Source of the DNA: Martelella sp. AD-3
Lineage (GTDB): Bacteria > Pseudomonadota > Alphaproteobacteria > Rhizobiales > Rhizobiaceae
Direction of reading: 5' to 3'
Length of the DNA stretch: 64,000 nt
Assembly (NCBI RefSeq): GCF_001578105.1
Contig: NZ_CP014275.1
Location: 372,001-436,000, forward strand
Below the pieces are notes generated by a model. It made no database searches. It had not been told where the DNA came from and saw only the letters and a list, made by a program, of their open reading frames with translations. Below, in pieces: positions 17,445-37,017 of this stretch; positions within the stretch are counted from its first letter, which is position 1, and every line of letters begins with the position of its first letter. The position numbers and the translations under genes are program-made.

Positions 17445-17464
17445 TTGACGCGCCGAGACATACC

Positions 17465-17492: not shown

Positions 17493-17541
17493 ATCTTCCA
17501 ATGACAAGCGCAATGTCTGCGCCTGTGCGAAAGTCCGCCCC

Positions 17542-19210: not shown

Positions 19211-19238
19211 CGCTGAATATCAAAAAAAGGAAAAGACT

Positions 19239-21040: not shown

Positions 21041-21059
21041 GGAAGACGACAGAGCCGAC

Positions 21060-21944
21060 ATGAACATACCCGATGGCATTCCCCAGCACCTGAGCGATCT
21101 CGTCGCGCTGAACTCGGAGCGACTGACCCAGGCGGATACGCGACTTCTCGATGTGCTTCTTCAGAATCCGCTGCGCGCAGCCCTTGAAAACGGCAAGGAA
21201 ATCTCCACCCGGGCCGGCCTTCATCCGTCTTCCGCCGTTCGCCTGGCGCGTCGTCTGGGGTTTGAAGGCTATCCGGAATTCCGCACATTCCTGCAAAACA
21301 GTCTCGCGGGCGAGGATGAGGATTTCGACAACGGCGCTGCCCGCGTTGCCGCCCGTCTCCTGCGGGCCGATGAGGGCCACCTGGTCTCCTCCGTCATCGA
21401 CAGCGAGATCGCAGCGCTGGAAGCGGCGCGCAACAGCGTTGATGACCGGCAGATCCGAAAGTTTGCCGAAACGGTGCGGGATTGCCGCAAGGTCTTCATC
21501 ATCGGCACGGGCCACGCCGGCGCGCTCGCCCAGCTTCTGGGGCTGCGGCTCAATCGTTCGGGCTATGATGCCGTTGATCTCACAGCCACGCCGAACCAGA
21601 TGCGCGAAAAGCTGATGACGATGACGGCCGATGATGTGCTCTGGCTCTTTGCCTTTCGCAAATTGCCGCCGCTGGTCCAGGATATCCGCACCGTCGCCGC
21701 GGATCGGGGCGCGAAAACGCTTGCCGTGACCGATGTGCGGGGCGGACGGTTTTCCCCGCCGCCGGATCATCACATTACCATTTCGCGCGGATCGCTCGGC
21801 CAGTCGCAGTCCCTCGTCATCCCGATGACGGTTGCCAATACCGTGATCCTCGATCTTGCAGCCATCGACAACGGCCGCTCGATCCGCGCCATCGAGCAGT
21901 TCGACCGCTTCCGCGAAGACGGCCCGCCTCTGAGCTGGGGCTGA
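21060..21944 (+). CDS. RpiR-family transcriptional regulator with SIS domain
   Basis: This 294-residue protein has an N-terminal RpiR helix-turn-helix (about 10-90; STRAGLHPSSAVRLARRLGFEGYPEFRTFLQ) and a C-terminal sugar-isomerase (SIS) domain (about 130-270; KVFIIGTGHAGALAQLLGLRL). SIS domains of these regulators bind phosphosugars, so it probably controls the ugp-like operon in response to a phosphorylated intermediate. The start at 21060 is used because GAGGAAG lies upstream; an earlier in-frame ATG overlaps ugpC. It converges on the MaoC gene with 4 bp between stops. Confidence 0.85.
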   Translation: MNIPDGIPQHLSDLVALNSERLTQADTRLLDVLLQNPLRAALENGKEISTRAGLHPSSAVRLARRLGFEGYPEFRTFLQNSLAGEDEDFDNGAARVAARLLRADEGHLVSSVIDSEIAALEAARNSVDDRQIRKFAETVRDCRKVFIIGTGHAGALAQLLGLRLNRSGYDAVDLTATPNQMREKLMTMTADDVLWLFAFRKLPPLVQDIRTVAADRGAKTLAVTDVRGGRFSPPPDHHITISRGSLGQSQSLVIPMTVANTVILDLAAIDNGRSIRAIEQFDRFREDGPPLSWG

Positions 21945-21948
21945 GGGG

Positions 21949-22395
21949 CTATGCCTCTCGGCGCTCGACCAGATAGACATGGTCGCAGGCCATCACGACT
22001 TCTTCGCGCTGGTTGCGGACGCGCACCTCCTCGATGACCCGGCCATGGCCGGGTCGCTTCGGATCGTCCTCGCAGCGCGTGATCGTCAGCACGGTGTGGA
22101 TCGTGTCGCCGATGAAGACCGGTTTGGGGAAGCGCAGCCGCTCATAGCCATAGGTGAAGGAGAGTGGATTGATTTCCGACGCCGACAGGCCGATGCCGAT
22201 GGCAAAGGTCATCGTGCCATGGGCGATGCGCTGTCCGAAGGGGCTATCCTTCATGAATTCGGCATCCATGTGGTGGGGAAAGAAGTCGCCCGTATGGCCC
22301 GCATGGACGACGAAGTCCGTCTCGGTGATCGTCCGGCCATAGGTGCGGCGCTCCTCGCCGACCTTGATGTCCTCGAAATGGCGTGGCCGCTCCAT
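21949..22395 (-). CDS. MaoC-family hydratase/dehydratase
   Basis: A 148-residue hotdog-fold protein of the MaoC/R-hydratase family. The family hydratase motif is visible as DFFPHHMDAEFMKDSPFGQRIAHGTM (Asp/His pair and GxxIAHGxM), and FPKPVFIGDTIHTV is also typical. MaoC enzymes add or remove water on enoyl-CoA-type substrates. It is the last gene of a four-gene minus-strand operon; its ATG overlaps the stop of the upstream gene (ATGA). The CoA-transferase in the same operon suggests a CoA-thioester substrate, which I cannot name. Confidence 0.85.
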   Translation of the reverse strand: MERPRHFEDIKVGEERRTYGRTITETDFVVHAGHTGDFFPHHMDAEFMKDSPFGQRIAHGTMTFAIGIGLSASEINPLSFTYGYERLRFPKPVFIGDTIHTVLTITRCEDDPKRPGHGRVIEEVRVRNQREEVVMACDHVYLVERREA

Positions 22396-23525
22396 CAGAA
22401 GCTCTCCGTAAACAGTGTGTTGATCCGGGCAATGGCGGCACGCGCGTTTGTGCCATCCCGGAGGGCAGCGTTGAGCGCATCGGAGGCCGCAGCCTGGAAG
22501 CGCATATAGCCGTAGTGGCGCGGACGCAGGAACGCTGTTTCCAGCGTTTGCCTTGTGTTGCGATAAAAATCGTGGGTTTTGGCGTTGACGGCATCGTCGG
22601 TCCAGCCGGCGTCATGGCCGGGCTGGCCGCCGGCCTCGGGATAAAGCCCCGACTGAACCGCGGCGCCTGCGACCCAGTAGGCGTAGTCGATTGCCGCTTC
22701 CCGGTTCCCGCAAAAGGCCGAGACGGCAATGCCCGTGCCGCCGAGCGCCGATCCGCAGGGGCCGTTATCGCCAAGTGACGGGATGTCGGCGAAGGTCAGC
22801 CGGTGCGGGCGGAAGCCGTCGACAGCATAATTCACATAGCCGTAGATATAGGGCGAGAGGACTGCCTGCGGCCCAGGCCCGGCCAGCGCCTCGAGCACGG
22901 CAATCGGATCCATGGCGAAGTTTTCCGCCGGCACCACGCGTGCAAGTTCGGCAAGCTTCTCATAAACCGCGATACCGTCATCAACGGCGATCAGCGGTCC
23001 GGGGCTTTCCGTCTGGCAGGGCGTGCCGGTATTGGCGGCAAGCGTATAGAACGTCATCAGATTGTGCGGCGGGCGCAGCGGAAGCATGACGCGGCCTTCG
23101 CAGGCAAGCGCGATCAGGCTTTCCCAGTCTTGGGGCAATTCTTCGATCAGGTCCTCGCGATAGGCCATGACCTGCGCTGCCGCGTCCAGCGGGAATGCCC
23201 ATTGACGTCCATGATAGCCATAGCTCGGGTAGGACGCGCCGACGGAGCCTTTTGCAAGCGCATCCCGCTCATCCTCGCGACCCGGCACATCCAGCGGCGC
23301 CAGGCAGTTCTCCGCCGTGATCTGGCCCACATGCGGGTGATCGATGACGATCAGGTCATATTGCCGGGCCAGTTCCTCGACCGGAAAGCTCTCGAAATCC
23401 TGCAGGCTGCGCTTGTCCCATTCGATCGCGACGCCTGTCTTCCTTCGCCATTCGGCGGCACTTGCCGCCATCGGGTCATAGCCGCGCGGATGGCTCCAGG
23501 TCATGCCTTTCAGTTTGATCGTCAC
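22395..23525 (-). CDS. Solute-binding-protein-fold protein without signal peptide
   Basis: This 376-residue protein resembles family 1 extracellular solute-binding proteins (MTWSHPRGYDPMAASAAEWRRKTG, YDLIVIDHPHVG, PSYGYHGRQWAFPLDAAAQVMAYREDLI). It begins directly with the mature-type sequence (MTIKLKGMTWS) and has no export signal, and no permease or ATPase lies beside it. The GTG start at 23525 overlaps the CoA-transferase stop by 4 bp (GTGA), and its stop overlaps the MaoC start. The frame stays open upstream, but that part is antisense-like shadow of the CoA-transferase. It may be a cytoplasmic ligand-binding or sensor protein, or an enzyme on the same fold. The function is unknown. Confidence 0.75.
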   Translation of the reverse strand: MTIKLKGMTWSHPRGYDPMAASAAEWRRKTGVAIEWDKRSLQDFESFPVEELARQYDLIVIDHPHVGQITAENCLAPLDVPGREDERDALAKGSVGASYPSYGYHGRQWAFPLDAAAQVMAYREDLIEELPQDWESLIALACEGRVMLPLRPPHNLMTFYTLAANTGTPCQTESPGPLIAVDDGIAVYEKLAELARVVPAENFAMDPIAVLEALAGPGPQAVLSPYIYGYVNYAVDGFRPHRLTFADIPSLGDNGPCGSALGGTGIAVSAFCGNREAAIDYAYWVAGAAVQSGLYPEAGGQPGHDAGWTDDAVNAKTHDFYRNTRQTLETAFLRPRHYGYMRFQAAASDALNAALRDGTNARAAIARINTLFTESF

Positions 23526-24685
23526 AGGCCGAACTCCGCGCGTATGGCTTCGCTCTGCTCGCCGATCCTCGGCGCGGCGCGGCCGGTCTGCATGCGCCTG
23601 CCATCGATCCTCAGCGGCGAACGCGTGGTGCGGATCGAGACCCCGTCCTCGCGCGTCACCGTCTGCAACATGTCGAGCACCTTGAAGCCGGCATGGTTCA
23701 TTAGTTCCTGCCAGTCGAGCACCCTGGCGCACCAGACATCGGCCGGTTCCAGAATAGAGAGCCAGTGGTCCGTGGTTTCGGTGGCGAGATGGCCGGCGAT
23801 GATGCGCTTGATGTCGTCGCGCGCGGTAAACCAGAGATCCGGCTTGTCGCGGTAGGGGGCAAGGTCATCGAAGCCAAGCACGTCGGCAAGCTGGTCGATC
23901 GGCATCATCGCGAGCGTCAGCCAGCCGTCGGCGGTCGGATAGACGCCGTAGGGGGCGGAAAGATAGGCATGGGCGGAGCGGTAGGCGGCGCGTTTCGGCG
24001 GCCGCTCGCCGTCATTCAGATGCGTCGTGAGAACCTCGAACTGGAAGTCGATCATCGCCTCCAGCAGGCTCGTCTCCACATGCGCGCCCTTGCCGGTGCG
24101 GCCCTGCTTCACCAGCGCGGCCAGAACGCCCTGCGCCAGCGCGGCGCCCGCCAGCATGTCGGCAATGGCAAGGCCGAAGGGCACCGGGCCCTGGCCGTCG
24201 TCGCCGTTCAGCCACATCACGCCGGAGCGCGCCTGCGCCAGAAGGTCCTGGCCCGGCCGGCTGACCCAGGGCCCTTCGTCACCATAGCCAGTGATCGAGC
24301 CATAGACGAGGCCCGGGAAATCCTGTTTCAGCGTCTCGTAATCAAGCCCGATCCTCTGAATCACGCCGGGGCGGAAATTCTGCAGCACCACATCCGCCTT
24401 GCCGATCAGCGTCTTCAGCGCGGCAAGGTCGTCCGGGTCCTTCATGTCCAGCGCGAGACTTTCCTTGGACCGGTTGATTGCGTGGAAAATCGTGGAATCG
24501 CCGCCGATCTCGGTGTCGGAGAGATAAAGCCTGCGGGAAAGATCGCCAAGGCCCGGACGCTCGATCTTGATCACCCGCGCGCCGAGGTCCTGCAGGCGGA
24601 GCGAACAATAGGGGCCGGAGAGAAACTGGCACATGTCGAGCACCAGCACGCCCTCGAGCGGCAGGTCGGACGTATCTGCGGTCAT
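23522..24685 (-). CDS. CaiB/BaiF-family CoA-transferase (class III)
   Basis: This 387-residue class III CoA-transferase moves CoA between carboxylic acids. Family motifs are LDMCQFLSGPYCSLRLQDLGA, ARVIKIERPGLGD, NRSKESLALDMKDP, LQNFRPGVIQRIGLDY and SITGYGDEGPW. The catalytic Asp expected after LxxxLVxxGRTGKG...ETSLLEA is not in the usual DxS form but may be supplied near GKGAHVETSLLEA. It overlaps the upstream oxidoreductase (ATGA at 24682-24685) and the downstream gene (GTGA). The substrate is unknown. Confidence 0.87.
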   Translation of the reverse strand: MTADTSDLPLEGVLVLDMCQFLSGPYCSLRLQDLGARVIKIERPGLGDLSRRLYLSDTEIGGDSTIFHAINRSKESLALDMKDPDDLAALKTLIGKADVVLQNFRPGVIQRIGLDYETLKQDFPGLVYGSITGYGDEGPWVSRPGQDLLAQARSGVMWLNGDDGQGPVPFGLAIADMLAGAALAQGVLAALVKQGRTGKGAHVETSLLEAMIDFQFEVLTTHLNDGERPPKRAAYRSAHAYLSAPYGVYPTADGWLTLAMMPIDQLADVLGFDDLAPYRDKPDLWFTARDDIKRIIAGHLATETTDHWLSILEPADVWCARVLDWQELMNHAGFKVLDMLQTVTREDGVSIRTTRSPLRIDGRRMQTGRAAPRIGEQSEAIRAEFGL

Positions 24686-25746
24686 GGTCTTTCCTTGATC
24701 GGGGTGGCGGGGCGGGCGCTGCTCTCATAAGCGGCCTCGACCAGCGCCATGGTGTTCCAGGCGTCCTCGACGCTTGTCAGAAGGGTGTCGTCCTCGCCGG
24801 CGACGAAACGCTGGAGATTGTTCATCACACCGATGAAGGCATGCGGGAACCATGTGCCGGAAAGCGCAATCTCTTCCCAGTCGCCGCCCTTTTTGCAGAA
24901 CCAGAGCTCGTCCGGCACGCCCTTGGGGTAGTCGAGATTGACGCCGAGCGTGGTGATGGCCACGCCCCTGTTACCCTCGAAACGGAAGTAGCAATCCTGG
25001 AATTTCGGCCCGAAGTCATGATTGTGATTGACCGACATGACCGCCCGCACGGGCTCGGGATAGTCGAGGATCGCCGATGTGCGCGACTGCGAGACCGTGG
25101 TGTCCGGATGGCCGAGCGTTTTGGCATGGATGCCGCGCGGATTGCCCAGAAAATGGCGCATCAGGTCCAGATAGTGGATCGAGTGCAGCAGGATCTCGAC
25201 GCGCTCCATGCCCTTCAGGAACGGCCAGAGATGCCAGGGCGTCATGATGTTGGCGTGCAGTTCGACATCGACGAGTTCGCCCAGCGCGCCGCTTTTGTAA
25301 AGGTCGTGGATCGCCAGCATCATCGGCGAGAAACGAAGCTGGAAATTGACGGCGGCCGTCAGTTTTTTCTCGCGGGCGGCCTTGAGGATCGCCGTCGCCT
25401 CGGCAAGGTCGCGCCCCATCGGCTTTTGCAGAAGGGCAGGCGCCCCTTCCGGCAGTTTCTCGATCACGCCCTGATGGGCAACCGGCGGCAGCGCCAGGTC
25501 GAAGACGGCGTTTTCGGTCGCGATCGCCTCCTCAAGGCTGGCGAATGGCGTGATGTCCCAGTCGGCCGCAACCTGGGCGGTGCGTTCGGCGTCGAGATCG
25601 AACACGCCGGCGACAGGAATGCCGGCCATGCGATAGGCGGGCAGATGGGCGTCGGTGACGATCGAACCGCCTCCGACGATGACGACAGGCCGTGGTGCAG
25701 TGACCGCCGCCCACTTTTGCGTCGGGCCACGCGATATGTGTGACAA
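24682..25746 (-). CDS. Gfo/Idh/MocA-family oxidoreductase
   Basis: A 354-residue NAD(P)-dependent dehydrogenase, typically acting on sugars or cyclitols. The N-terminal Rossmann domain shows [30 protein letters not shown] and the family motif [22 protein letters not shown], whose Lys-Pro is part of the catalytic site; the C-terminal domain starts near 135. The TTG start at 25746 is supported by a strong GAAGGAGGAG at 25752-25761. It opens the four-gene operon (oxidoreductase, CoA-transferase, binding-protein fold, MaoC). An alternative internal GTG (VTAPRPV) cannot be excluded. Confidence 0.85.
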
Positions 25747-26014: not shown

Positions 26015-26347
26015 ATGAGCGAATTGCCGCCATGTCCCAAATGTCAGTCGATTTACGCCTATGAAGACGGAGCGCTGTTGATCTGCCCCGAATGCGGGAA
26101 CGAATGGACGCCGGGGACGGACGAGAGCGGCGGACCGGAATTCAAGGACGCCAATGGCAATCGACTGGCCGATGGCGATACCGTCACCGTCATCAAGGAC
26201 CTGAAGCTCAAGGGTTCGAGCCAGGTTCTCAAGGTCGGCACCAAGGTGAAGAACATCCGTCTTGTCGAAGGCGATCACAATATCGACTGCAAGATAGATG
26301 GTTTCGGCGCCATGAAGCTGAAGTCGGAATTCGTGAAGAAGATCTGA
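26015..26347 (+). CDS. yjdM: PhnA/YjdM-type zinc-ribbon protein
   Basis: A 110-residue protein of the former PhnA family. The N-terminal zinc ribbon has CPKCQS and CPECGNEW (two Cys pairs at about 7/10 and 26/29), followed by the conserved C-terminal domain ([48 protein letters not shown]). Its role is not settled; despite the old name it is not needed for phosphonate breakdown in E. coli. AGGAGG lies 6 bp upstream of ATG 26015. It is transcribed alone, divergent from the oxidoreductase operon, with a terminator at its stop codon. Confidence 0.92.
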
Positions 26348-26457: not shown

Positions 26458-26787
26458 TCAGTCGAGATGGAACACGTCTTCCATCTCGATCCACCATTCA
26501 TCCTCTTTCGCCGTTTCGAGTGGTTTCTGGCAGGGCATGCAGACCGACCACCATTCCTGCGTTTTCGGATCTGCGGCCATCTTCGCCATGTCGGCCTCGT
26601 AGTCATCGCCGGTATATTCGTAGTAGGAAAACAGGAGGTTTTCCGGCTCCCTGAGGAAAATGGTATAGTTCCGGATATTACATTTCCTGATCATGTCCAG
26701 AATTTCCGGCCAGACGTCGGCGTGCAACCGCTTGTATTCGGCCACCTTTTCGGCGTTGAGCGTCAGGACCATTCCGATGCGCTGCAT
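26458..26787 (-). CDS. L-rhamnose mutarotase family protein, probably L-fucose mutarotase
   Basis: A 109-residue protein of the RhaM family (MQRIGMVLTLNAEKVAEYKRLHADVWPEI, CNIRNYTIFLREPENLLFSYYEY, DEWWIEMEDVFHLD), which interconverts the anomers of 6-deoxy sugars. The conserved His of LHADVWPE and the WW pair near the end are present. The surrounding L-fucose catabolic genes make L-fucose the likelier substrate. It follows the lactonase gene by 47 bp on the minus strand, in the order IclR, lactonase, mutarotase. Confidence 0.9.
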   Translation of the reverse strand: MQRIGMVLTLNAEKVAEYKRLHADVWPEILDMIRKCNIRNYTIFLREPENLLFSYYEYTGDDYEADMAKMAADPKTQEWWSVCMPCQKPLETAKEDEWWIEMEDVFHLD

Positions 26788-26834: not shown

Positions 26835-27659
26835 CTAAAGCCGGTAGACCTTCTCCGCATTGACGCTGAACAGTTTTTTCTGCTCATCGGGACTGGCGTC
26901 GGCGACCAGTTCCTTCGAGGCCGCGACCCAGTCTTCAAGGCTTGCAAACAGCGTACAGACGGGAAAGTCGGAGCCCCAGACGACGCGGTCGAAGGTGAAG
27001 GTGTCGATGACGTGGCTGACATAGGGGCGCAGACCCTCAACGCTCCAGTCCGCGCCGCCATAGGCGATGACGCCGGAGACCTTTGCCGTCACATTGGCGA
27101 GCTTCGCGATCTCGCCGATATGCTCCCGCCAGGGATCAAGTCCGTCATTTTCGATGTCCGGCACGCCGCAGTGGTCGAGCACGAACTGAACCTCCGGGCA
27201 TTTCTGCGCCAGATCGATGGCGAGCGGCAGCTGGCGGGCCAGCACGCAGAGATCGAATGTCATGTCGTGGGCCGCTAGCCGACGGATATTCTCGACAAAT
27301 ATATCCGACTGGGAAAGCGCGTCCGGCATGATATGCAGCACGCGGCGCAGGCCCTTGACGCCCTCGATCGCGGCGATGCGCTCCAGATAGGCGGGGAAAT
27401 CGGGGCTTTCCGGCCGGCCGGCGGCAATGGCGCCTGCAATTCTTTCATGGGCCCCGACGATGAAGGCGCTTTCGGCCTCCATGTCCTCTTCCGCAACGTC
27501 GACCTCCATGTGCAGCGCTTTTTCGATGCCGAGGTCTTCGGCGCGGGCGAAAAAGCCTTCCGCCGTTGCCTGGCGGTCAAGGGCAGGGGCGTCCTTCAGC
27601 CAGGGATAGGAGAAGCGGTCCTTGTAGACGAGGTGGAGATGGGTATCGATGATGCGCAT
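26835..27659 (-). CDS. Amidohydrolase-2 family lactonase, probably L-fucono-lactonase
   Basis: A 274-residue amidohydrolase of the COG3618 type. The metal motif THLHL is at the N-terminus (MRIIDTHLHLVYKDRFSYPWLKD), with FVLDHCGVP and RVVWGSDFPV later, giving the HxH, His and final Asp ligands of the family. Characterised relatives hydrolyse L-fucono-1,5-lactone to L-fuconate, which fits the L-fuconate dehydratase at 34.9 kb. The start at 27659 has GGGAGG just upstream; the longer frame begins in the IclR gene and is not credible. Confidence 0.85.
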   Translation of the reverse strand: MRIIDTHLHLVYKDRFSYPWLKDAPALDRQATAEGFFARAEDLGIEKALHMEVDVAEEDMEAESAFIVGAHERIAGAIAAGRPESPDFPAYLERIAAIEGVKGLRRVLHIMPDALSQSDIFVENIRRLAAHDMTFDLCVLARQLPLAIDLAQKCPEVQFVLDHCGVPDIENDGLDPWREHIGEIAKLANVTAKVSGVIAYGGADWSVEGLRPYVSHVIDTFTFDRVVWGSDFPVCTLFASLEDWVAASKELVADASPDEQKKLFSVNAEKVYRL

Positions 27660-27735: not shown

Positions 27736-28491
27736 TCAATCCTCCGGGCGGCCCTTCGACAGGCTGGCGGCGGCCGCGCGCACCAGTTCAAGCGTATGGG
27801 CGCGGTCTTCGCGGCCATCGCGGTCAAGCCGTTCCGTATAGGGCGAAGTGACGACCGCCATCACCGAGCCGAGCGGGCCGATGACGGGGGCCGACAGGTT
27901 GGTGACGCCGGCGATCTGTTCGGACGGCATCATGGTGTGGCCGTCCCTGCGGATGGTCTCGAGCATCGCCTCGACCTGGGGCGACATCGTTTCGCCCGCG
28001 CCCTTCAGCATCAGCGCCCGGTTCTCGGGTGACGAGAAAGCCAGGAAGACGAGACCGGAGCCGGTCGAGGTGAGCTTGAGCTGGGTGCCGACGCGCACGG
28101 CGAGCGACCAGTAGCTCGGCGCATCCACCTGGGCAACGACGACCGCGGCGTTGCGGTCGAAGACCACGAGATGGCACGACTGTCCGGCATCCTGCGCGAC
28201 CTGCTGAAGCAACGGCATCGCCTGGTTGACAAGTCGCCGCAGCGGCGGACGGGCATGGACCAGTTCGAACATCTTCAGTGTGATCTCGTAGCGGTCCTCC
28301 GGCGTGCGGCGGATATATTCGCGTCGCACCAGCCGGTCGAGCATGCGGTAGATCTCGTTTGGCGTGCGCCCCAGCGACTTGGCAATCTCCGCCTGGCTGA
28401 GAGCCCCGTCCGTTTCCGCCAGCAGCTCGAAAATATCGAGTCCCTTGTCGAGAGCGGGGGCGCGGTAGCGGTCGGATTCATCTGTTGCCAT
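27736..28491 (-). CDS. IclR-family transcriptional regulator
   Basis: A 251-residue IclR regulator. The N-terminal winged helix is about 12-75 (LDKGLDIFELLAETDGALSQAEIAKSLGRTPNEIYRMLDRLV) and the C-terminal effector domain about 90-245 (GQSCHLVVFDRNAAVVVAQVD, TSTGSGLVFLAFS, GVTNLSAPVIGPLG). It is divergent from the fucose ABC operon starting at 28673 and upstream of the lactonase and mutarotase, so it most likely controls both, with fucose or a pathway intermediate as effector. Confidence 0.9.
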   Translation of the reverse strand: MATDESDRYRAPALDKGLDIFELLAETDGALSQAEIAKSLGRTPNEIYRMLDRLVRREYIRRTPEDRYEITLKMFELVHARPPLRRLVNQAMPLLQQVAQDAGQSCHLVVFDRNAAVVVAQVDAPSYWSLAVRVGTQLKLTSTGSGLVFLAFSSPENRALMLKGAGETMSPQVEAMLETIRRDGHTMMPSEQIAGVTNLSAPVIGPLGSVMAVVTSPYTERLDRDGREDRAHTLELVRAAAASLSKGRPED

Positions 28492-28629: not shown

Positions 28630-28672
28630 AGGATCAAGTCTTTTCTGGGCTTGAATGGATAGGAGGAGAATG

Positions 28673-30001
28673 ATGCGAATGACTTTTCTGAAGGCGGCGC
28701 TTGTCGCCTGCTGCGCCGTGGGCGGCCTCGCTGCCTCGGCCCAGGCCGATGATTTCGACTACGGCAGTTTTCCGGACTATACGCTGAAGGTGAAGCTGAT
28801 CGGCGGCACCCAGTACGAGAAGCTCTATACCCGTATCCCGGAATGGGAAGAAATGACCGGCGCCAGGGTCGAGATCGTTTCCTCGAAGAACCATTTCGAT
28901 CTCGACCGCGAGATCAAGCAGGACATTGCCGCCGGCGACATTTCGTGGTGCGTCGGCTCCAATCATACGAGCTTCGCGCCGCAATACGGCGATCTCTACA
29001 TCGACCTTTCCGAGCATATACCGCCGTCCGAACTCGATAAATATGTCCAGGGCACGCTGAACGCCTCGATGGTGGATGGCCGTCTGGTGCAGTTGCCGCG
29101 CGTCACCGATGTTTCCAACATCTACTACCGCAAGAGCCTTTATGCCGATCCGGCAAACCAGGCCGCGTGGAAAGAGAAGTATGGCACCGAACTGGCGCCG
29201 CCGAAGACCTTCGACGAGTTCCGCGACCAGGTGATCTTCTTCGCCGATCCGCCGAACCTTTACGGCACGGCCTTTGCCGGCAAGGATGAGGGCATGTCGG
29301 GCCGCTTCATGGAAATCCTGCGCGCCAATGGCGGCGATATGTTTGATGAGGACATGAAGCCGGTGTTCAATTCCGAAGCCGGCGTCGAAGCGCTGCAGTG
29401 GTTCATCGACATCTACGAGGCCGGCGCGGTTCCTGCCGGTACGGTCAACTATACCTGGGATGATATCGGCCAGGCCATGGCCGCCGGTCAGCTTGCAGTC
29501 GATCTCGACTGGCCGGGCTGGGCAGCCTTCTTCGCTGATCCGGAAGCCTCCAAGATCGCCGATGATCTCGGCTATGCGGTCTCGCCCGTCGGTTCGTCGG
29601 GCAAGCGCGGCGGCTGGTCCGGCTCGCATTCCTTCTCTGTCACGCAGGATTGCGACAACAAGGACGCCGGCGTTTCCTTCGCCGTGTTCATGACCAATGA
29701 CGAGAGCGAAATGATGGAAGCCATGGCCGGCAATCTGCCGACCCGCACAGCGACCTATGACGAAGTCGTCAAGTGGTTCAACGAGAACGGCAAGGAAAAC
29801 CTCGCCGAGATGTTCACGGTATGGAAGGGCTCGCTTGATGACGCCCGCACGCCGCCGCTCATTCCGGAGTGGATCCAGGTCTCCAACGTTCTGTGGCCCG
29901 AGCTGCAGGCCGCCATCGTCGGCGAGAAAACGGCGCAGGAAGCCCTCGACGATGCCGCCGAGGAAGCGACCTATATCATGGAAGACGCGGGCTACTACTG
30001 A
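28673..30001 (+). CDS. Sugar ABC transporter substrate-binding protein (fucose locus)
   Basis: A 442-residue family 1 solute-binding protein. A signal peptide of about 26 residues (MRMTFLKAALVACCAVGGLAASAQA-DDFD) is followed by YTLKVKLIGGTQYEKLYTRIPEWEEMTG. The second of two adjacent ATGs (28673) is chosen because it lies 6 bp after AGGAGG. It opens a plus-strand operon with two permeases, an ATPase and four enzymes of L-fucose oxidation. L-fucose or a fucoside is therefore the inferred ligand. Confidence 0.87.
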   Translation: MRMTFLKAALVACCAVGGLAASAQADDFDYGSFPDYTLKVKLIGGTQYEKLYTRIPEWEEMTGARVEIVSSKNHFDLDREIKQDIAAGDISWCVGSNHTSFAPQYGDLYIDLSEHIPPSELDKYVQGTLNASMVDGRLVQLPRVTDVSNIYYRKSLYADPANQAAWKEKYGTELAPPKTFDEFRDQVIFFADPPNLYGTAFAGKDEGMSGRFMEILRANGGDMFDEDMKPVFNSEAGVEALQWFIDIYEAGAVPAGTVNYTWDDIGQAMAAGQLAVDLDWPGWAAFFADPEASKIADDLGYAVSPVGSSGKRGGWSGSHSFSVTQDCDNKDAGVSFAVFMTNDESEMMEAMAGNLPTRTATYDEVVKWFNENGKENLAEMFTVWKGSLDDARTPPLIPEWIQVSNVLWPELQAAIVGEKTAQEALDDAAEEATYIMEDAGYY

Positions 30002-30025
30002 CCCCGCCTTTTCTTGCTCAGTACC

Positions 30026-30070
30026 GCTGTCGGCCCTCGGGCCGGCAGCGTGATCCGGCCCCGGGGCCGG
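30026..30070 (+). repeat. Hairpin and 16-bp palindrome between binding protein and permease
   Basis: A 10-bp stem with a four-base loop (30026-30035/30040-30049, one G-U pair) is followed by the perfect palindrome CCGGCCCCGGGGCCGG (30055-30070). No U-run follows. The position after a binding-protein gene matches the hairpin at 17465 and suggests mRNA protection or partial termination. Confidence 0.5.
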
Positions 30071-30108
30071 CTGCTCCTCCCATTCTTTCCAATTCTCGAA
30101 GGCGCGAC

Positions 30109-31011
30109 ATGAAGTTTTTCAGGTCTCCGCAGGCGACGCCCTATCTTCTGCTGCTGCCGGCCATTATCGTCATTCTGGCGGTCGTGCTGGTGCCGCTTCT
30201 CGTGTCGTTCTGGACGAGCTTCACCAGTTACAACCTGGTTCGACCGGACTCCCTTTACAATTTCGTGGGGCTGCGCAATTACGAGCGGCTGATGGGCAAT
30301 GACGATTTCTGGTGGGCCTTCGGGCGCACTGTCGTTTTCATCACCATTGCGCTCAACCTCGAAATGGTCATGGGGCTGGGGCTCGCACTCCTGGTCAACC
30401 GCATCACCTGGGGCCAGCGCACGCTCAGAACCATCATGATGTTCCCGATGATGTTCTCGCCCATTCTTGTGGGCTTCCAGTTCAAATACCTGTTCAACGA
30501 TTCCGTCGGCCTGGTGAACAATGCGCTGTTCGCGCTGAACCTGATCGAAAAACCGATCCCGTGGCTGGTCAATGGCTGGCTTGCGAACTTCTCGATCATT
30601 GTCGCCGAGATGTGGATGTCGACCTCGATCTTCGCCATCCTGCTGATGGCCGGCCTGCTGGCCATGCCGAAGGAGCCGATCGAGGCGGCCAAGGTGGACG
30701 GCTGCAACGCCATCCAGGTCTTCCGCCATATCACGCTGCCTTTCCTGATGCCGTTCATCTGGATCGCGATGACGATCCGATCGCTCGACGTCGCGCGCGC
30801 CTATGACATGGTGAAGATCATGACCAATGGCGGGCCGGCGGGCCGCACGGAACTGATCTGGACGCTGATGACGCGGACAGGCTACCAGAACTCGCAGATG
30901 GGCATGGCGAACGCCATGGGCTACGTCTCCATCCTGCTGTCGATCGCCTTCACCATCATCTTCTACCGCAATCTCTCCAAGTCGCGGCTGTTCATGGGAG
31001 GCGCACAATGA
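30109..31011 (+). CDS. Sugar ABC transporter permease, first subunit (fucose locus)
   Basis: A 300-residue MalF-group permease. The first helix is about 10-35 (TPYLLLLPAIIVILAVVLVPLLVSFW), and the EAA loop PKEPIEAAKVDGCNAIQVFRHITLP lies near residue 190. The start at 30109 is chosen because the frame continues upstream only as shadow inside the binding-protein gene. It overlaps the next permease by 4 bp (ATGA). Confidence 0.88.
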   Translation: MKFFRSPQATPYLLLLPAIIVILAVVLVPLLVSFWTSFTSYNLVRPDSLYNFVGLRNYERLMGNDDFWWAFGRTVVFITIALNLEMVMGLGLALLVNRITWGQRTLRTIMMFPMMFSPILVGFQFKYLFNDSVGLVNNALFALNLIEKPIPWLVNGWLANFSIIVAEMWMSTSIFAILLMAGLLAMPKEPIEAAKVDGCNAIQVFRHITLPFLMPFIWIAMTIRSLDVARAYDMVKIMTNGGPAGRTELIWTLMTRTGYQNSQMGMANAMGYVSILLSIAFTIIFYRNLSKSRLFMGGAQ

Positions 31012-31874
31012 GGAACACCATGACCATCGAGAGGCCCTGGCAGCGCTGGCTGCTCAGGATCACGCTGTTCATCGCCATGATGATCCTCGTCGTGCCAGGC
31101 GCATGGGTGGTTCTGACCGCCTTCCGTCCCAATGTCGAGGTCATGGCGCGTCCGCCGGTCTGGATCCCGCAGCAGTGGACGCTCAACAATTTTCTCGGCA
31201 TTTTCGGGCTTCTGCCGGAGCGGCAACAGGGATTGCCGGTCACGAACTACTTCATCAACTCGCTGGTGATCTCGCTCACCTCCACCTTTGTTGCCATCCT
31301 GATCGGCATGATGGGCGGTTATGCCTTTGCCCGCTATCGGTTCAGGGGCAAGGGGGCGCTGTTCCTCTCCTTCATGCTGTCGCGCACCGTGCCCGGCGTG
31401 GCGCTGTCGCTGCCGCTCTTCATTCTCTGGAGCAGGATCGGGCTGATCGACACCAAGTTCGGGCTGATCCTCGTCTATATGGCGATCAACATCCCCTTCA
31501 CCATCTGGCTGACGGACGGCTTCTTCCGCCAGATCCCGGCCGACCTTTCCGAGGCTGCCCAGATTGACGGCTGCACCCGCTGGCAGGCTTTCTGGAAGGT
31601 TGAGTTTCCGCTCGCCCGTTCCGGTCTTGCCTCAGCCGGCATCTTCGCCTTTCTGACGGCATGGAACGAGTTCGCGCTCGCAAGCCAGCTCACCCGGACC
31701 ACCGCATCGAAGACCATGCCGGTCGGGCTGATGGATTTCACCGCCCAGTTCACCGTCGACTGGACCGGGATGAGCGCCATGGCGGTGCTGATCATCATTC
31801 CCGCGCTCATTCTCACCTTCATCGTACAAAAGCATCTGATTGCCGGACTGACGTTCGGCGGTGTGAAAGGATAA
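31008..31874 (+). CDS. Sugar ABC transporter permease, second subunit (fucose locus)
   Basis: A 288-residue MalG-group permease with six predicted helices; the first is LLRITLFIAMMILVVPGAWVVL near 10-35. The EAA loop PADLSEAAQIDGCTRWQAFWKVEFP is near residue 180, and the C-terminus ends AGLTFGGVKG. It overlaps the first permease (ATGA) and lies 4 bp before the ATPase gene. Confidence 0.88.
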   Translation: MRNTMTIERPWQRWLLRITLFIAMMILVVPGAWVVLTAFRPNVEVMARPPVWIPQQWTLNNFLGIFGLLPERQQGLPVTNYFINSLVISLTSTFVAILIGMMGGYAFARYRFRGKGALFLSFMLSRTVPGVALSLPLFILWSRIGLIDTKFGLILVYMAINIPFTIWLTDGFFRQIPADLSEAAQIDGCTRWQAFWKVEFPLARSGLASAGIFAFLTAWNEFALASQLTRTTASKTMPVGLMDFTAQFTVDWTGMSAMAVLIIIPALILTFIVQKHLIAGLTFGGVKG

Positions 31875-31878
31875 TCCC

Positions 31879-32970
31879 GTGGCCGAAGTGCACCTTTCCA
31901 AAATCGTCAAGCGTTACGGATCGCTGGAAGTCGTTCATGGCATCGATCTTGAAGTCGCGCATAACGAATTCGTCGTTCTCGTCGGCCCGTCCGGCTGCGG
32001 CAAGTCGACAACACTCAGGATGATCGCCGGCCTGGAGGAAATCTCCGGCGGCGAACTGAAGATCGGCGACCGCGTCGTCAATGCCCTGCCGCCGCGCGCG
32101 CGCAACATCTCAATGGTGTTCCAGTCCTACGCGCTCTATCCGCACATGACTGTGCGCGAGAACCTCGGCTTCGGACTGAAGATCGCCGGCATGACGCCGG
32201 AGGATATCAAGCCGCGCGTCGACGAGGCCGCCGCCATCCTCGGCCTCGAGAGCTTCATGGACAGGTTGCCCGCCAACCTGTCCGGCGGCCAGCGCCAGCG
32301 CGTCGCCATGGGCCGCGCCATCGTGCGCCACCCGGATGTCTTCCTGTTCGACGAGCCGCTCTCCAACCTCGATGCCAAGCTGCGCGGCCAGATGCGCGTC
32401 GAGATCAAGAAGCTGCATCAGCGGGTGAAGACCACCGTGATTTATGTGACCCACGACCAGGTGGAGGCGATGACGCTGGCGGACCGGATCGTGATCATGC
32501 GCGATGGCTATGTCGAGCAGGTCGGTACGCCGACGGAGGTGTTCGAGAACCCGGTCAATACTTTCGTTGCCGGCTTCATCGGCTCGCCGCCGATGAACCA
32601 GCTTGACGGCGTGGTGGAAAGCGCCGCAGCGCGCCTTGCCGACGGTACGGTGGTGCCGCTGCCGGAGGATATTGCCGCGAAGCTTTCCGACGGACGGAAG
32701 GTCGTGGTCGGGTTCCGCCCCGACGCTTTTGCGCCCAAGGGCCACTCGCTGCATCCGGAAGACCGCTCTGTCGAGATCGAGGCGCCTGTCATCATCTCCG
32801 AGCCGCTCGGAACCGAAACCATCATCTTCACCCAATTCGGCGGCAAGGAAGTGCAGGCCAAGATGCTCGACCCGCGCCCGCTTGAAGATGGCGAAACGCT
32901 GACCTTCACGCTGGACCTCGAACGCCTTCACGTCTTTGACGGTGAGACCGGCAAGAGCCTGAGGGCCTGA
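31879..32970 (+). CDS. Sugar ABC transporter ATPase, MalK/UgpC type (fucose locus)
   Basis: A 363-residue ATPase with Walker A GPSGCGKST, Q-loop VFQSYALYPHMTV, signature LSGGQRQRVAMGRA, Walker B VFLFDEPLSNLDA and H-loop VTHDQVEA. A C-terminal TOBE domain covers about 280-360. The GTG start at 31879 follows the permease stop by 4 bp. The following enolase-superfamily gene begins 2 bp after its stop, so transport and catabolism are one operon. Confidence 0.9.
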   Translation: MAEVHLSKIVKRYGSLEVVHGIDLEVAHNEFVVLVGPSGCGKSTTLRMIAGLEEISGGELKIGDRVVNALPPRARNISMVFQSYALYPHMTVRENLGFGLKIAGMTPEDIKPRVDEAAAILGLESFMDRLPANLSGGQRQRVAMGRAIVRHPDVFLFDEPLSNLDAKLRGQMRVEIKKLHQRVKTTVIYVTHDQVEAMTLADRIVIMRDGYVEQVGTPTEVFENPVNTFVAGFIGSPPMNQLDGVVESAAARLADGTVVPLPEDIAAKLSDGRKVVVGFRPDAFAPKGHSLHPEDRSVEIEAPVIISEPLGTETIIFTQFGGKEVQAKMLDPRPLEDGETLTFTLDLERLHVFDGETGKSLRA

Positions 32971-32972
32971 CA

Positions 32973-34079
32973 ATGGCAAAGATCGTCCGCGCCGAACTGG
33001 TGATGGTGGACCTGAAACCGAAGGTGACGCGGGTCGACGCGATCCAGACCTTCGTTTCCCAGGAAACCCCTATCGTGCGCATCACCGACGCCGACGGGGT
33101 GATCGGCACCGGCTATTCCTATACGATCGGCACCGGCGGCCCGTCCGTCATGGCGCTTCTGGAAAAGACCCTGCTGCCGGCGGTTATCGGCCGCGAGGCC
33201 TTCGATATCGAGCGGATCTGGCAGGATCTCTCGTTCCTCACCCATGCGACCACGGTCGGCGCCATCACCGCGATCGCGCTTGCCGCCATCGATACCGCGC
33301 TCTGGGATCTGAAGGCCGTCAAGCTCGGCCTGCCGCTTCACAAGCTGGCGGGCGGGGCGAAGGACGAGATACCGCTCTACACAACGGAAGGCGGCTGGCT
33401 GCATCTGGAAACCGAGGCACTGGTGGCTGACGCGATTGCGGCGAAGGCAAACGGCTTTGCCGGCTGCAAGCTCAAGGTTGGGCGCCCGCTTGCCGAAGAT
33501 GTCGCGCGGATATCGGCGGTGCGCGAGGCTGTGGGGCCGGCTTTCGAAATATTCACCGATGCCAACCAGGCCTTTGCCGTGGACGAGGCCGTGCGCCGGG
33601 CGGCGGCCTATCAGCGGCTCGATATCGGCTGGCTGGAAGAGCCTTTGCCGGCGGATGATATCGAGGGCCACGCGGTGCTCTCGAGGCACACAAGCGTGCC
33701 GGTCGCCGTCGGCGAGAGCGTTTATTCGGCACTCCATTTCCGTGAATATCTGGAGCGGCGGGCCTGTTCTGTCATCCAGGTCGATGTCGGCCGCATCGGC
33801 GGCATCACGCCGTGGCTCAAGGTCTCGCATATGGCCGAGTGCTTCAATGTTGCCGTGGCGCCGCATTTCCTGATGGAACTGCATGTTTCGCTGTGCGCGG
33901 CGGTGCCCAATGCGCGCTGGGTGGAGTATATTCCGCAGCTTGACGCGATCACGCTTGAGGGCATGACCATCCGCGACGGACGCGCCATTCCGTCTTCCGC
34001 GCCGGGCCTTGGCATCGCATGGGATTTCGATGCGATCGGCCGCATGGCCGTCGAGGGCTCGCAAAAGACAATCAACTGA
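32973..34079 (+). CDS. Mandelate racemase/muconate lactonizing family enzyme
   Basis: A 368-residue enolase-superfamily protein of the mandelate racemase subgroup. The KxK pair is K166-L-K168; metal ligands are D196 (TDANQ), the Glu of WLEEP near 222 and the Glu of GES near 248; the His-Asp dyad is D271 (VDVGRIGG) and H298 (APHFLMELH). Numbering almost equals that of mandelate racemase. Members dehydrate or epimerise sugar acids. The same operon also holds a true L-fuconate dehydratase, so this second enzyme may act on another aldonate imported by the system. The substrate is unknown. Confidence 0.85.
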   Translation: MAKIVRAELVMVDLKPKVTRVDAIQTFVSQETPIVRITDADGVIGTGYSYTIGTGGPSVMALLEKTLLPAVIGREAFDIERIWQDLSFLTHATTVGAITAIALAAIDTALWDLKAVKLGLPLHKLAGGAKDEIPLYTTEGGWLHLETEALVADAIAAKANGFAGCKLKVGRPLAEDVARISAVREAVGPAFEIFTDANQAFAVDEAVRRAAAYQRLDIGWLEEPLPADDIEGHAVLSRHTSVPVAVGESVYSALHFREYLERRACSVIQVDVGRIGGITPWLKVSHMAECFNVAVAPHFLMELHVSLCAAVPNARWVEYIPQLDAITLEGMTIRDGRAIPSSAPGLGIAWDFDAIGRMAVEGSQKTIN

Positions 34080-34096
34080 CGTTCAAGGGAGCGATC

Positions 34097-34828
34097 ATGA
34101 CCGACCTTTCCGGAAAAACCTGTTTCATCACCGCCGCCGCGCAGGGCATCGGGGCAGCATCGGCCAGGGCCTTCGCCAAAGCGGGCGCCACGGTGATTGC
34201 GACCGACATCAATGCCGAAAAACTCAAGGAACTTGAGGGCATCGAGAACACTTCGACGCGGGTCTTGAATGTGCTGTCGGACGAGGCGGTCACCATCGCC
34301 GCGCAGGAAATCGGGCAGGTCGATATCCTGTTCAACTGCGCCGGCATCGTCCACAACGGCTCTATCCTGGATGGCAAGGAAAGCGATCTCGACCTTGCCT
34401 ATGATCTCAACGTCAAGGCCATGGTGCGCACCATCCGTGCCTTCCTGCCCGGTATGCTCGAGCGGGGCGACGGGGCCATCATCAACATGTCCTCGGTCGC
34501 TTCCAGCATGAAGGGCGTTCCCAACCGTTTCGCCTACACCACCACCAAGGCCGCCGTTCTCGGGCTGACCAAATCGGTCGCCGCCGACTTTGTCTCCAGA
34601 GGCATTCGCTGCAACGCCATCTGCCCGGGCACGGTCGACAGCCCCTCGCTGCAGGAACGCCTGAAGGCGACCGGCGATTATGAAAAGGCGCGGACCGATT
34701 TCATCGCCCGCCAGCCGATCGGCCGCATCGGCACGCCCGAGGAGATCGCCGACCTTGCCGTCTACCTTGCCGGCGCGACCTATACGACCGGCCAGGCCTA
34801 TGCCATCGACGGCGGCTGGACCTGCTGA
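34097..34828 (+). CDS. SDR oxidoreductase, probably 2-keto-3-deoxy-L-fuconate dehydrogenase
   Basis: A 243-residue classical short-chain dehydrogenase. The cofactor motif TAAAQGIGAASARAFAKAGA is at the N-terminus; NCAGIVHNG, the active-site Ser (INMSSVASS), YTTTK (Tyr-x3-Lys) and the C-terminal YTTGQAYAIDGGW are present. In the Xanthomonas L-fucose pathway an SDR oxidises 2-keto-3-deoxy-L-fuconate to the 2,4-diketo acid; the genes on either side fit this step. It could instead be the L-fucose dehydrogenase, which in some bacteria is also an SDR. ATG 34097 is used; the upstream frame extends into the previous gene. Confidence 0.82.
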   Translation: MTDLSGKTCFITAAAQGIGAASARAFAKAGATVIATDINAEKLKELEGIENTSTRVLNVLSDEAVTIAAQEIGQVDILFNCAGIVHNGSILDGKESDLDLAYDLNVKAMVRTIRAFLPGMLERGDGAIINMSSVASSMKGVPNRFAYTTTKAAVLGLTKSVAADFVSRGIRCNAICPGTVDSPSLQERLKATGDYEKARTDFIARQPIGRIGTPEEIADLAVYLAGATYTTGQAYAIDGGWTC

Positions 34829-34864
34829 CTGCCGCCCGAACCGACGCAAGACCGAGTGCAAGAC

Positions 34865-36169
34865 ATGACCACCATCACCGGATTATCCGTCCACGACCTG
34901 CGTTTTCCGACCTCCGCCAAGCTTGACGGTTCGGATGCCATGAACCCCGATCCCGATTACTCCGCCGCCTATGTCGTGCTCAAGACGGATGGCGACCATG
35001 AAGGCCACGGCCTGACCTTCACCATCGGCCGGGGCAATGAAGTGGTCTGTGCCGCGATCGCCGCGCTTGAAAACCGCGTGAAGGGGTTGAGGCTCGACTG
35101 GGTTGCCGAAAACCCGGGCCGTTTCTGGCGGCATGTCACCGGCGACAGCCAGCTGCGCTGGATCGGGCCGGACAAGGGCGCGATGCACCTGGCAACCGGC
35201 GCCGTGGTCAATGCCTTCTGGGACCTCATGGCAAAGACCGCGGGAAAACCGGTCTGGCAGTTCGTCGCCGAGATGACGCCGGAACAGCTCGTCTCGATCA
35301 TCGATTTCCGCTACCTGACCGATGCGATCACGCCGGACGAGGCGCTCGCAATCTTCCGCAAGGCGGAGGCAGGCAAGGCGGAGCGGATCGCGGAGCTGAA
35401 GAAAAACGGCTATCCCTGCTACACGACCTCGGCCGGCTGGCTCGGCTACAGCCACGACAAGCTGCGTCGTCTGGCGCAGGAGGCCGTCGACAGCGGCTTC
35501 ACCTTCATCAAGATGAAGGTCGGGCAGGACCGCGACGAGGATATTGCGCGGCTCAGGATCGTGCGCGAGGTGATCGGCGAGGATCGCACGCTGATGATCG
35601 ACGCCAACCAGGTCTGGGAGGTCGATCAGGCGATCGACTGGGTGAAGGCGCTTGCGCCGTTCCGGCCCTATTTCATCGAGGAGCCGACAAGTCCCGACGA
35701 TGTTGCAGGCCACAGGAAGATCCGCGAGGCCGTCGCCCCGGTGAAGGTCGCGACCGGCGAGATGTGCCAGAACCGTATTCTGTTCAAGCAGTTTATTGCC
35801 GGCGGCGCCATCGATATCGTCCAGATCGATGCCTGCCGCATCGGTGGGCTGAACGAGGTGCTCTCGGTTCTGGTGATGGCGGCGAAATATGGCCTTCCGG
35901 TCTGGCCGCATGCCGGCGGCGTCGGCCTTTGCGAATATGTCCAGCACCTGTCGATGATCGACTATCTCGTGGTTTCAGGCACCAAGGAAGGCCGCGTCAT
36001 CGAATATGTCGATCATCTGCACGAGCATTTCGTCGATCCCTGCCGGATCGCGGGGGCTGCCTATATGCCGCCGCAAATGCCGGGCTTTTCGATTGAGATG
36101 AAGCCGGAAACGCTTCATAACTACGCGCATCCGACGTCTCAGGCGTCGAAAACGGGAGAATTGACATGA
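34865..36169 (+). CDS. fucD: L-fuconate dehydratase
   Basis: This 434-residue enolase-superfamily enzyme dehydrates L-fuconate to 2-keto-3-deoxy-L-fuconate. It is recognised from the full-length pattern: long N-terminal capping domain (DGSDAMNPDPDYSAAYVVL, GRFWRHVTGDSQLRWIGP), KMK at 216-218, metal ligands in MIDANQVW, FIEEPTSPDD and ATGEM, catalytic His349 in WPHAGGVGLCEYVQH, and a C-terminus typical of FucD and human ENOSF1. A GTG nine bases upstream (34856) is an alternative start. The next gene overlaps it by 4 bp. Confidence 0.92.
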   Translation: MTTITGLSVHDLRFPTSAKLDGSDAMNPDPDYSAAYVVLKTDGDHEGHGLTFTIGRGNEVVCAAIAALENRVKGLRLDWVAENPGRFWRHVTGDSQLRWIGPDKGAMHLATGAVVNAFWDLMAKTAGKPVWQFVAEMTPEQLVSIIDFRYLTDAITPDEALAIFRKAEAGKAERIAELKKNGYPCYTTSAGWLGYSHDKLRRLAQEAVDSGFTFIKMKVGQDRDEDIARLRIVREVIGEDRTLMIDANQVWEVDQAIDWVKALAPFRPYFIEEPTSPDDVAGHRKIREAVAPVKVATGEMCQNRILFKQFIAGGAIDIVQIDACRIGGLNEVLSVLVMAAKYGLPVWPHAGGVGLCEYVQHLSMIDYLVVSGTKEGRVIEYVDHLHEHFVDPCRIAGAAYMPPQMPGFSIEMKPETLHNYAHPTSQASKTGELT

Positions 36170-37017
36170 AACTGCTTCGCCTTGGCGCCAGGGGCGCCGA
36201 ACGGCCCGCCATCCTGCATTCCGATGGCACCTACCGCGACATTTCCTCCGTCGTCGTCGACATTGCCGGCGACGCGCTGACGGCTGCCGGGCTGGCGCGC
36301 ATTGCCGCCGCCGATATCGGCAGCCTGCCGGTTCTGCCGCAGTCGAGCCGTATCGGACCCTGCGTCGGCAAGGTCGGAAAGTTCATCTGCATCGGCCTCA
36401 ATTATGCCGACCACGCGGCCGAGACCGGCGCCGAAATTCCGAAGGAGCCGATCGTGTTCATGAAGGCGACCAGCGCCATCATCGGCCCCAACGACGATGT
36501 CCGCATTCCGAGGAACTCGAAAAAGACCGACTGGGAAGTCGAGCTCGGCGTCGTCATCGGCAAGGAAGCTTCCTATGTCGATGAAGCCGACGCCATGGAC
36601 CACGTCGCCGGCTATTGCGTTGTCAACGATCTCTCCGAGCGCGAATTCCAGATCGAGCGCTCCGGCCAGTGGGTGAAGGGCAAGAGCGCCGACACCTTCG
36701 GGCCGATCGGCCCCTATCTGGTGACGCGTGATGAGGTGGAAGACCCGCAGAGTCTCGCCATGTGGCTCGAGGTTGACGGTCACCGCTACCAGGACGGCTC
36801 GACCAAGACGATGATCTTCGGCGTCTCGCACCTCGTCAGCTATCTGTCGCAGTTCATGAGCCTGCAGCCCGGCGACATCATCACCACCGGCACGCCGCCC
36901 GGCGTCGGCATGGGCATCAAGCCGGAGCCGGTCTATCTGAAGGAGGGCCAGACGATGACGCTCGGCATCGAAGGACTCGGCGAACAGAGCCAGAAGGCCG
37001 TCGCCTGGAACGCCTGA
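36166..37017 (+). CDS. Fumarylacetoacetate hydrolase family protein, probably 2,4-diketo-3-deoxy-L-fuconate hydrolase
   Basis: A 283-residue FAH-family enzyme. The conserved metal-binding core is visible: KFICIGLNYADHAAE, PKEPIVFMKATSAIIGPND, DWEVELGVVIGKEA, GYCVVNDLSEREFQ, KSADTFGPIGPYLV and TGTPPGVGMG. The family cleaves C-C bonds of diketo acids. In L-fucose oxidation this step gives pyruvate and L-lactate, matching fucD and the SDR just upstream. Start overlaps the fucD stop (ATGA). A strong hairpin follows at 37028. Confidence 0.9.
   Translation: MKLLRLGARGAERPAILHSDGTYRDISSVVVDIAGDALTAAGLARIAAADIGSLPVLPQSSRIGPCVGKVGKFICIGLNYADHAAETGAEIPKEPIVFMKATSAIIGPNDDVRIPRNSKKTDWEVELGVVIGKEASYVDEADAMDHVAGYCVVNDLSEREFQIERSGQWVKGKSADTFGPIGPYLVTRDEVEDPQSLAMWLEVDGHRYQDGSTKTMIFGVSHLVSYLSQFMSLQPGDIITTGTPPGVGMGIKPEPVYLKEGQTMTLGIEGLGEQSQKAVAWNA

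Follow-up and report, generated by a model that had tools for sequence, protein, structure and literature searches.

Our analysis concerned a four-gene operon of Martelella sp. AD-3 that lies within a 64,000-nt stretch of NZ_CP014275.1 (positions 372,001 to 436,000; referred to as the window, and coordinates below are window positions unless another record is named). According to open reading frame (ORF) coordinates and Pfam domains the operon runs on the minus strand and encodes, in this order, an oxidoreductase (MocA), a class III CoA-transferase (CoAT), a protein with the fold of a solute-binding protein (SBP) that we call SBPc, and a hydratase (MaoC):

24682..25746, minus strand: MocA, Gfo/Idh/MocA oxidoreductase, 354 aa; TTG start preceded by GGAGGAG; Pfam GFO_IDH_MocA
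23522..24685, minus strand: CoAT, class III CoA-transferase, 387 aa; Pfam CoA_transf_3, 329.8 bits (cut-off 23.3)
22395..23525, minus strand: SBPc, CUT1-type SBP fold without signal peptide, 376 aa; GTG start; Pfam SBP_bac_8
21949..22395, minus strand: MaoC hydratase, 148 aa; Pfam MaoC_dehydratas; closest solved chain 4ffu

A first-pass annotation of this DNA had named the same four ORFs and families, which the coordinates and Pfam bear out. It had also joined the genes by ATGA/GTGA overlaps; this is correct for MocA/CoAT (ATGA) and CoAT/SBPc (GTGA) and incorrect for SBPc/MaoC, where the junction is TGATG with one base in common. Catalytic positions are retained in both CoA-related enzymes. 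In CoAT the position of the catalytic Asp is conserved in a LAIAD-type segment in 5/5 subfamily sequences compared and aligns with 10uh; we take this Asp to be the nucleophile. The window MaoC contains the motif TGDFFPHHMD with the Asp/His dyad kept, where motif and spacing are presumably those of the family. CoAT matched the curated succinyl-CoA:mesaconate CoA-transferase family with 202 bits, below the cut-off of 700, and the itaconate enzyme was not among the 7 curated families listed.

SBPc scored 49.7 bits against Pfam SBP_bac_8 (cut-off 27), and its model is that of an intact CUT1 binding protein, alignable over the whole length. The lack of a signal peptide, which the first-pass annotation had claimed and which a start further upstream might have overturned, was confirmed, judged by the maximum 13-residue hydropathy and not by a dedicated signal-peptide predictor. 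The in-frame extension upstream of the SBPc start is hydrophilic (maximum -0.34). Among 70 aligned relatives the highest value within residues 1 to 40 was 1.18 (median 0.38), whereas the importer next to the operon has a secreted binding protein that reaches 2.25. One relative is 98% identical to SBPc, and the nearest one with a species name, from M. lutilitoris, 95%. Conservation across the 70 sequences is high: 17 columns are invariant and 36 more are nearly so; conserved residues include H12, R14, D62, D114 and R334, of which D62, D114 and R334 are among the invariant ones. In the model 18 of these 53 residues lie in helices, 18 in loops and 17 in strands (184, 132 and 60, respectively, for all 376), an enrichment in strands that is not a test of the cleft. 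Where both proteins were compared at a locus (n=59, omitting loci without an importer SBP or with one at 80% identity or more) identity to the window counterpart was 63.1% for SBPc versus 54.8% for the importer SBP. The 50 matches listed in each of two fold comparisons contained no enzyme with this fold other than MBP fusion constructs, which excludes nothing.

The genomic neighborhoods of SBPc revealed a conserved association with CoAT. In 80 named loci, which are the closest SBPc relatives and were examined for up to 10 kb on each side, CoAT adjoins SBPc in 78; the two others are L071 and L081, the latter on a contig that begins 404 bases upstream. The other genes are less regular: MocA was found in 48/80, the window type of MaoC in 45/80, a second MaoC (MaoC1) in 56/80 and some MaoC in 73/80, while all four genes occur in 45/80 and lie no more than 3.5 kb from SBPc in 12/80. 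Because the named loci are closest relatives, we also drew an even sample of 397 Hyphomicrobiales genomes, in which the best 4 candidates per genome were scored, so that presence counts are lower bounds. SBPc was present in at least 53/397 genomes at 74 places, 73 of which were evaluated (the 432-base fragment G454:C125 was left out). CoAT lies within ~500 bases of SBPc at 43/73 places (41 of 71 stretches, plus the window and G497) and within ~12 kb at a further 22, 3 of these according to the CoAT positions in the genome search, giving 65/73 in total; in the 41 it was upstream in 26 and downstream in 15, and on the same strand in 41/41. A MaoC or crotonase was found at 62/73 places (50 of 71 stretches, 10 more in a second count, and the window and G497), and all four gene types together in 12/71 stretches (~6 to 10 kb on each side). 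The CoAT subfamily of the window (E at most 1e-90) occurred in 36/397 genomes, and 35 of these 36 also encoded SBPc, the lone exception being a partial CoAT match in G642. Among the remaining 18 SBPc genomes, 12 have a second CoAT subfamily together with a crotonase in the fetched stretch. Since the window genome of 5.0 Mb contains only three CoA_transf_3 genes, adjacency would be expected by chance in ~0.1%, and a chance neighborhood was rejected on this ground and on the order-wide adjacency and co-occurrence. The conserved unit is thus SBPc plus CoAT, with MaoC or crotonase as hydratase; several other arrangements occur besides the exact operon of four genes. The linkage that the first-pass annotation wanted to see across genomes therefore exists for SBPc and CoAT, and does not extend equally to all four genes.

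MaoC1 (L026:8262-8825 and relatives) stands beside CoAT in the loci in which it was found. Going by the dyad motif of the family, it keeps the Asp and appears to be without the dyad His in two sequences read; no close MaoC1 copy was found in the window genome.

Some SBPc copies are situated away from CoAT. All 13 Martelella genomes searched match SBPc strongly (E at most 1.2e-156), and the sole match in G001 is a copy that stands by itself, with no CoAT (L014, a place also covered as L071). The window genome itself encodes a second SBPc (G000:C1:3390805-3391929; L126:9302-10429), 54% identical and upstream of a LacI gene, with no CoA-transferase in the 19 kb fetched around it. The ORFs downstream, by their N-termini, presumably encode a xylulokinase and a xylose isomerase. 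SBPc is also found beside a LacI gene in five other Martelella genomes (L242-L246).

Gene fusions and co-divergence likewise connect SBPc with CoAT. A search with a joined CoAT and SBPc query gave 257 proteins, and the 120 listed comprised 4 SBPc-CoAT, 1 MaoC-CoAT and 98 CoAT-CoAT fusions (96 plus two pieced ones) next to 15 proteins with CoAT alone and 2 with SBPc alone. On reading, P0308 and P0332 had clean SBPc-CoAT junctions. P0312 was discounted as a probable frameshift with a garbled SBPc C-terminus, P0307 was doubtful and not counted as clean, and an apparent in-frame fusion in G537 was rejected after three-frame reading placed the two genes in different frames. In 63 of the 80 named loci, in which all five proteins were present at 85% length or more, pairwise distances correlated with 0.88 for SBPc and CoAT, 0.78 for SBPc and the importer SBP, and 0.94 for the importer SBP and its own permease. 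With permease and IclR regressed out, the partial correlation was 0.59 for SBPc and CoAT and -0.17 for SBPc and the importer SBP.

The tandem CoAT-CoAT fusions (P0214-P0313, ~780 residues, from sources including Hymenobacter, Pelagicoccus and Planctomycetota) join two CoATs like those found side by side in Bacteroidota operons and were not taken as evidence on SBPc.

The association is spread over several phyla. In an even phylum draw, where the best 6 candidates per genome were scored, at least 13/299 genomes matched SBPc with an E-value no higher than 1e-20, and two of these do not belong to the class. A match over most of SBPc was present in 145 plasmid records, 90 of which are named Sinorhizobium; pSymB of S. 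meliloti carries a CoAT-SBPc pair without MocA or MaoC beside it, and SBPc-CoAT-crotonase sets are located on Streptomyces, Azospirillum and Variovorax plasmids. In the Bacteroidota Rufibacter tibetensis and Persicobacter psychrovividus the order is SBPc-CoAT-CoAT-SBP2-MocA-MaoC, with alcohol dehydrogenase and SDR genes between MocA and MaoC in Persicobacter only. Identities to the window are 35-41% for SBPc, 51-54% for CoAT, 45-46% for MocA and 59-60% for MaoC. These operons belong to polysaccharide loci that also encode a TonB receptor, SusD-type proteins and a RhaT symporter, and no ABC permease is annotated in the ~47-kb stretches of both loci, whose gene tables are incomplete.

Another family with the SBP fold, SBP2, lies directly upstream of MocA in both Bacteroidota loci (L250:13667-14791, L251:13451-14680). 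Its N-terminus is not hydrophobic (0.62 in Persicobacter; 0.54 in Rufibacter, where the annotated start is possibly too late), and relatives with 41% identity precede MocA in two alphaproteobacterial loci (L127:14983-16164, L128:15766-16929).

We grouped the neighborhoods into six cluster types of our own: fucose-type clusters with MaoC (I); clusters with MocA, AP_endonuc_2, DUF4432, SDR, CoAT, SBPc, crotonase and often a long FAH protein related to 2-keto-3-deoxy-D-arabinonate dehydratase (II); CUT1 importer clusters with SDR (III); clusters with alcohol dehydrogenase and SDR (IV); CUT2 importer clusters with IclR and CoAT ~6-7 kb away (V); and sets with aldehyde dehydrogenase, some with TRAP transporters (VI). 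SBPc, CoAT and a CoA-type hydratase are the parts that recur across types.

Beside the operon the window encodes an oxidative sugar cluster and an importer:

26458..26787, minus strand: L-rhamnose/L-fucose-type mutarotase, from the family scan
26835..27659, minus strand: amidohydrolase, L-fucono-1,5-lactonase-like (95 bits, below the cut-off of 400)
27736..28491, minus strand: IclR-family regulator, from the family scan
28655..30001, plus strand: secreted binding protein of the importer; signal-peptide-like N-terminus, no Pfam/NCBIfam match, relatives annotated as sugar ABC substrate-binding protein
30112..32970, plus strand: two CUT1 permeases and a UgpC-like ATPase
32973..34079, plus strand: mandelate racemase-family sugar acid dehydratase, talarate/galactarate dehydratase-like
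34019..34828, plus strand: SDR dehydrogenase; the ORF start overlaps the preceding gene and the true start is likely downstream
34856..36169, plus strand: enolase-family dehydratase, L-fuconate dehydratase-like
36166..37017, plus strand: FAH-family hydrolase, 2,4-didehydro-3-deoxy-L-rhamnonate hydrolase-like (421 bits, cut-off 500)

Candidates for mutarotase, 1-dehydrogenase, lactonase, dehydratase, 4-dehydrogenase and hydrolase are all present, MocA likely being the sugar 1-dehydrogenase, and the specific L-fuconate dehydratase label of 34856..36169 is one that we assume from context. None of them exceeds its NCBIfam equivalog cut-off, and 'fucose' therefore means 6-deoxy-hexose type here. 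The first-pass annotation had suggested fucose, among other 6-deoxy sugars and sugar acids, for metabolite profiling. The adjacent cluster fits this suggestion, but clusters of at least five kinds, for sugars or acids, contain SBPc, which is thus not tied to one fucose pathway. Its statement that the operon has no transporter partners is right for the operon itself, which contains no permease or ATPase, and has to be amended for the surroundings, where the CUT1 importer at 28655-32970 lies near but outside the operon and has its own secreted SBP. A small protein with a zinc ribbon, which we take to resemble PhnA/YjdM, is encoded between the operon and the mutarotase gene (26015-26347, plus strand). 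On the operon's other side lies a second importer cluster (16137-21944) with a binding protein, two permease-like genes, a phosphodiesterase-like ORF, a UgpC-like ATPase and an RpiR regulator, of which the regulator alone was family-scanned and the other genes were read off ORFs.

We propose, with roughly even confidence for and against, that SBPc is an importer binding protein turned into a cytoplasmic substrate-binding partner of CoAT, which would form a CoA thioester on which the hydratase acts. Its ancestor would have been the binding protein of a sugar importer that lost its export signal. The retained cleft would bind a sugar-derived acid, which SBPc might present to CoAT, or SBPc might regulate CoAT, in either case as one of its subunits or by forming a transient complex; CoAT would then make the CoA thioester of this acid, and MaoC, or crotonase in other clusters, would convert it. 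Computed support consists of the fold, the missing signal peptide, linkage, co-occurrence, co-divergence, fusions and the retained catalytic positions, and we prefer this proposal because of the CoAT linkage, the co-occurrence, the fusions, the partial correlation and the Bacteroidota operons without annotated permease. The invariant columns, and the higher identity of SBPc than of the importer SBP to the window counterparts, count for it too. What we infer from these data is a physical SBPc-CoAT complex, suggested by the fusions, together with the class of ligand, the direction in which CoA is transferred and the reaction of the hydratase. The first-pass idea of a joint function of binding protein and enzymes gains support, as a prediction, from linkage, co-occurrence, co-divergence and fusions.

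Several observations weigh against this proposal. At the 22/73 places where CoAT is in the neighborhood it does not adjoin SBPc, so that the gene maps do not require a fixed complex. No CoAT was found in the fetched stretch, mostly ~9 kb on each side, at 8/73 places (G562, G393:C16, G363, G495, G404, G436, G454:C229 and the second SBPc copy of the window genome; the contig piece is short in three), nor within 21 kb of SBPc on a Microvirga plasmid. The co-occurrence of SBPc with the CoAT subfamily, with a Fisher p of 1.2e-35, ignores phylogeny. All four SBPc-CoAT fusions are single-member clusters, probably metagenomic, two with garbled junctions, and shared transfer of neighboring genes could contribute to the co-divergence.

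Other roles of SBPc have to be considered. If it were a normal SBP of an importer, with an overlooked signal peptide or exported by a different route, this would agree with its SBP_bac_8 score above the cut-off and with a CUT1 permease within the stretch in 63/80 named loci. However, a hydrophobic N-terminus is absent from 70/70 relatives and from the in-frame stretch upstream, the importer has its own secreted SBP in 64/80 named loci, and two Bacteroidota loci are without annotated permease nearby; we consider this most improbable and reject SBPc as an importer component on the hydropathy data and the gene neighborhoods. SBPc might instead be an enzyme itself that performs one step before or after CoAT, such as lactone opening, epimerisation or sugar-acid elimination, for which no complex would be needed. 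A degree of conservation resembling that of enzymes (17 columns invariant, 36 nearly so), which exceeds that of the importer SBP, and its occasional position several kb from CoAT in the same cluster speak for such a role, whereas the model remains an intact CUT1 binding protein along its whole length, and fusions and co-divergence single out CoAT. An enzymatic function appears possible, if on the unlikely side. Rather improbable, in our view, is a cytoplasmic ligand sensor or buffer that signals to a regulator or tunes flux and does not serve CoAT. An IclR or LacI regulator is indeed near SBPc in many clusters, and the second SBPc of the window genome lies beside a LacI gene and a xylose-isomerase-type operon. 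But the binding-protein fold fills the 376-residue model and leaves no room for a DNA-binding domain, the co-occurrence and fusions are with CoAT while the type of regulator varies between clusters, and the co-divergence with CoAT survives regressing out permease and IclR.

The proposed partnership of SBPc with CoAT could be extended to a bolder scheme, which we regard as doubtful: a non-phosphorylative sugar route via sugar-acid CoA thioesters. CoAT and cytoplasmic SBPc, the latter as specificity subunit, would charge the aldonate, crotonase or MaoC would dehydrate or cleave the thioester in place of an aldonate dehydratase, and CoA would pass to the next acid. In 8 genomes with a CoAT/SBPc/crotonase cluster, type II or near, IlvD/EDD was present within 15 kb in 0/8 and an enolase-family gene within 10 kb in 2/8. 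With few local dehydratases, and a long FAH protein in several type II clusters, the dehydration step there lacks an assigned enzyme, which counts in favor of such a replacement. On the other hand, fucose-type clusters carry enolase-family dehydratases as well, which fits less well, and a distant dehydratase or one of another family is possible.

Binding-protein folds that have taken on new roles are known from other contexts, as are modules of CoA-transferase and hydratase for organic acids. To our knowledge the mesaconate and itaconate CoA-transferase modules contain no SBP-fold protein, and we likewise know of no binding-protein subunit in benzylsuccinate CoA-transferase (9fn0). SBPc shares its fold with the SBPs of CUT1 importers (trehalose/maltose-binding 1eu8, Arad_9887 5iai, SmoF 7ofy) but lacks a signal peptide, has no partner permease encoded in its operon and is coupled to CoAT. 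The LGGW tryptophan of 1eu8 and SmoF is replaced by Thr/Ala, and an N-terminal TW-H-RG motif and the invariant D114 are specific to SBPc. In the available parts of their descriptions, succinyl-CoA:mesaconate CoA-transferase with mesaconyl-CoA hydratase (PMC5592240) and itaconate degradation (PMC12290011) likewise combine a CoA-transferase and a hydratase acting on an acid. The setting differs, as sugar catabolism is concerned here and the window CoAT scores far below the mesaconate cut-off. For route 3 of the non-phosphorylative L-fucose pathway, as far as it is covered in PMC11199699, the window neighbors provide mutarotase, lactonase-like, dehydratase, SDR and hydrolase candidates; the route as described in the passages considered, from a main text in which 'CoA' and 'MaoC' occur 0 times, includes no CoA-transferase or cytoplasmic binding protein. 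The two-subunit benzylsuccinate CoA-transferase, as listed in the PDB (9fn0), consists of two class III chains, like the CoAT-CoAT pairs and fusions found here. Among the titles and abstract starts listed from the open-access literature (25 of 547 matches in one case), a coverage outside which most subscription journals lie, no description of an SBPc/CoAT module was found.

A CUT1-type protein acting in the cytosol with a CoAT in sugar catabolism, the reaction of which is predicted, would match neither the repurposed SBP folds nor the CoA-transferase modules of organic acids. If the SBPc-CoAT partnership is real, a transport-protein fold would have been turned into a cytoplasmic partner of a metabolic enzyme, and many proteins called 'extracellular solute-binding protein' would be misnamed (3283 matches, not all of them checked). 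It would furthermore point to CoA-dependent handling of sugar acids in rhizobia and other Alphaproteobacteria as well as in Variovorax, Streptomyces and Bacteroidota.

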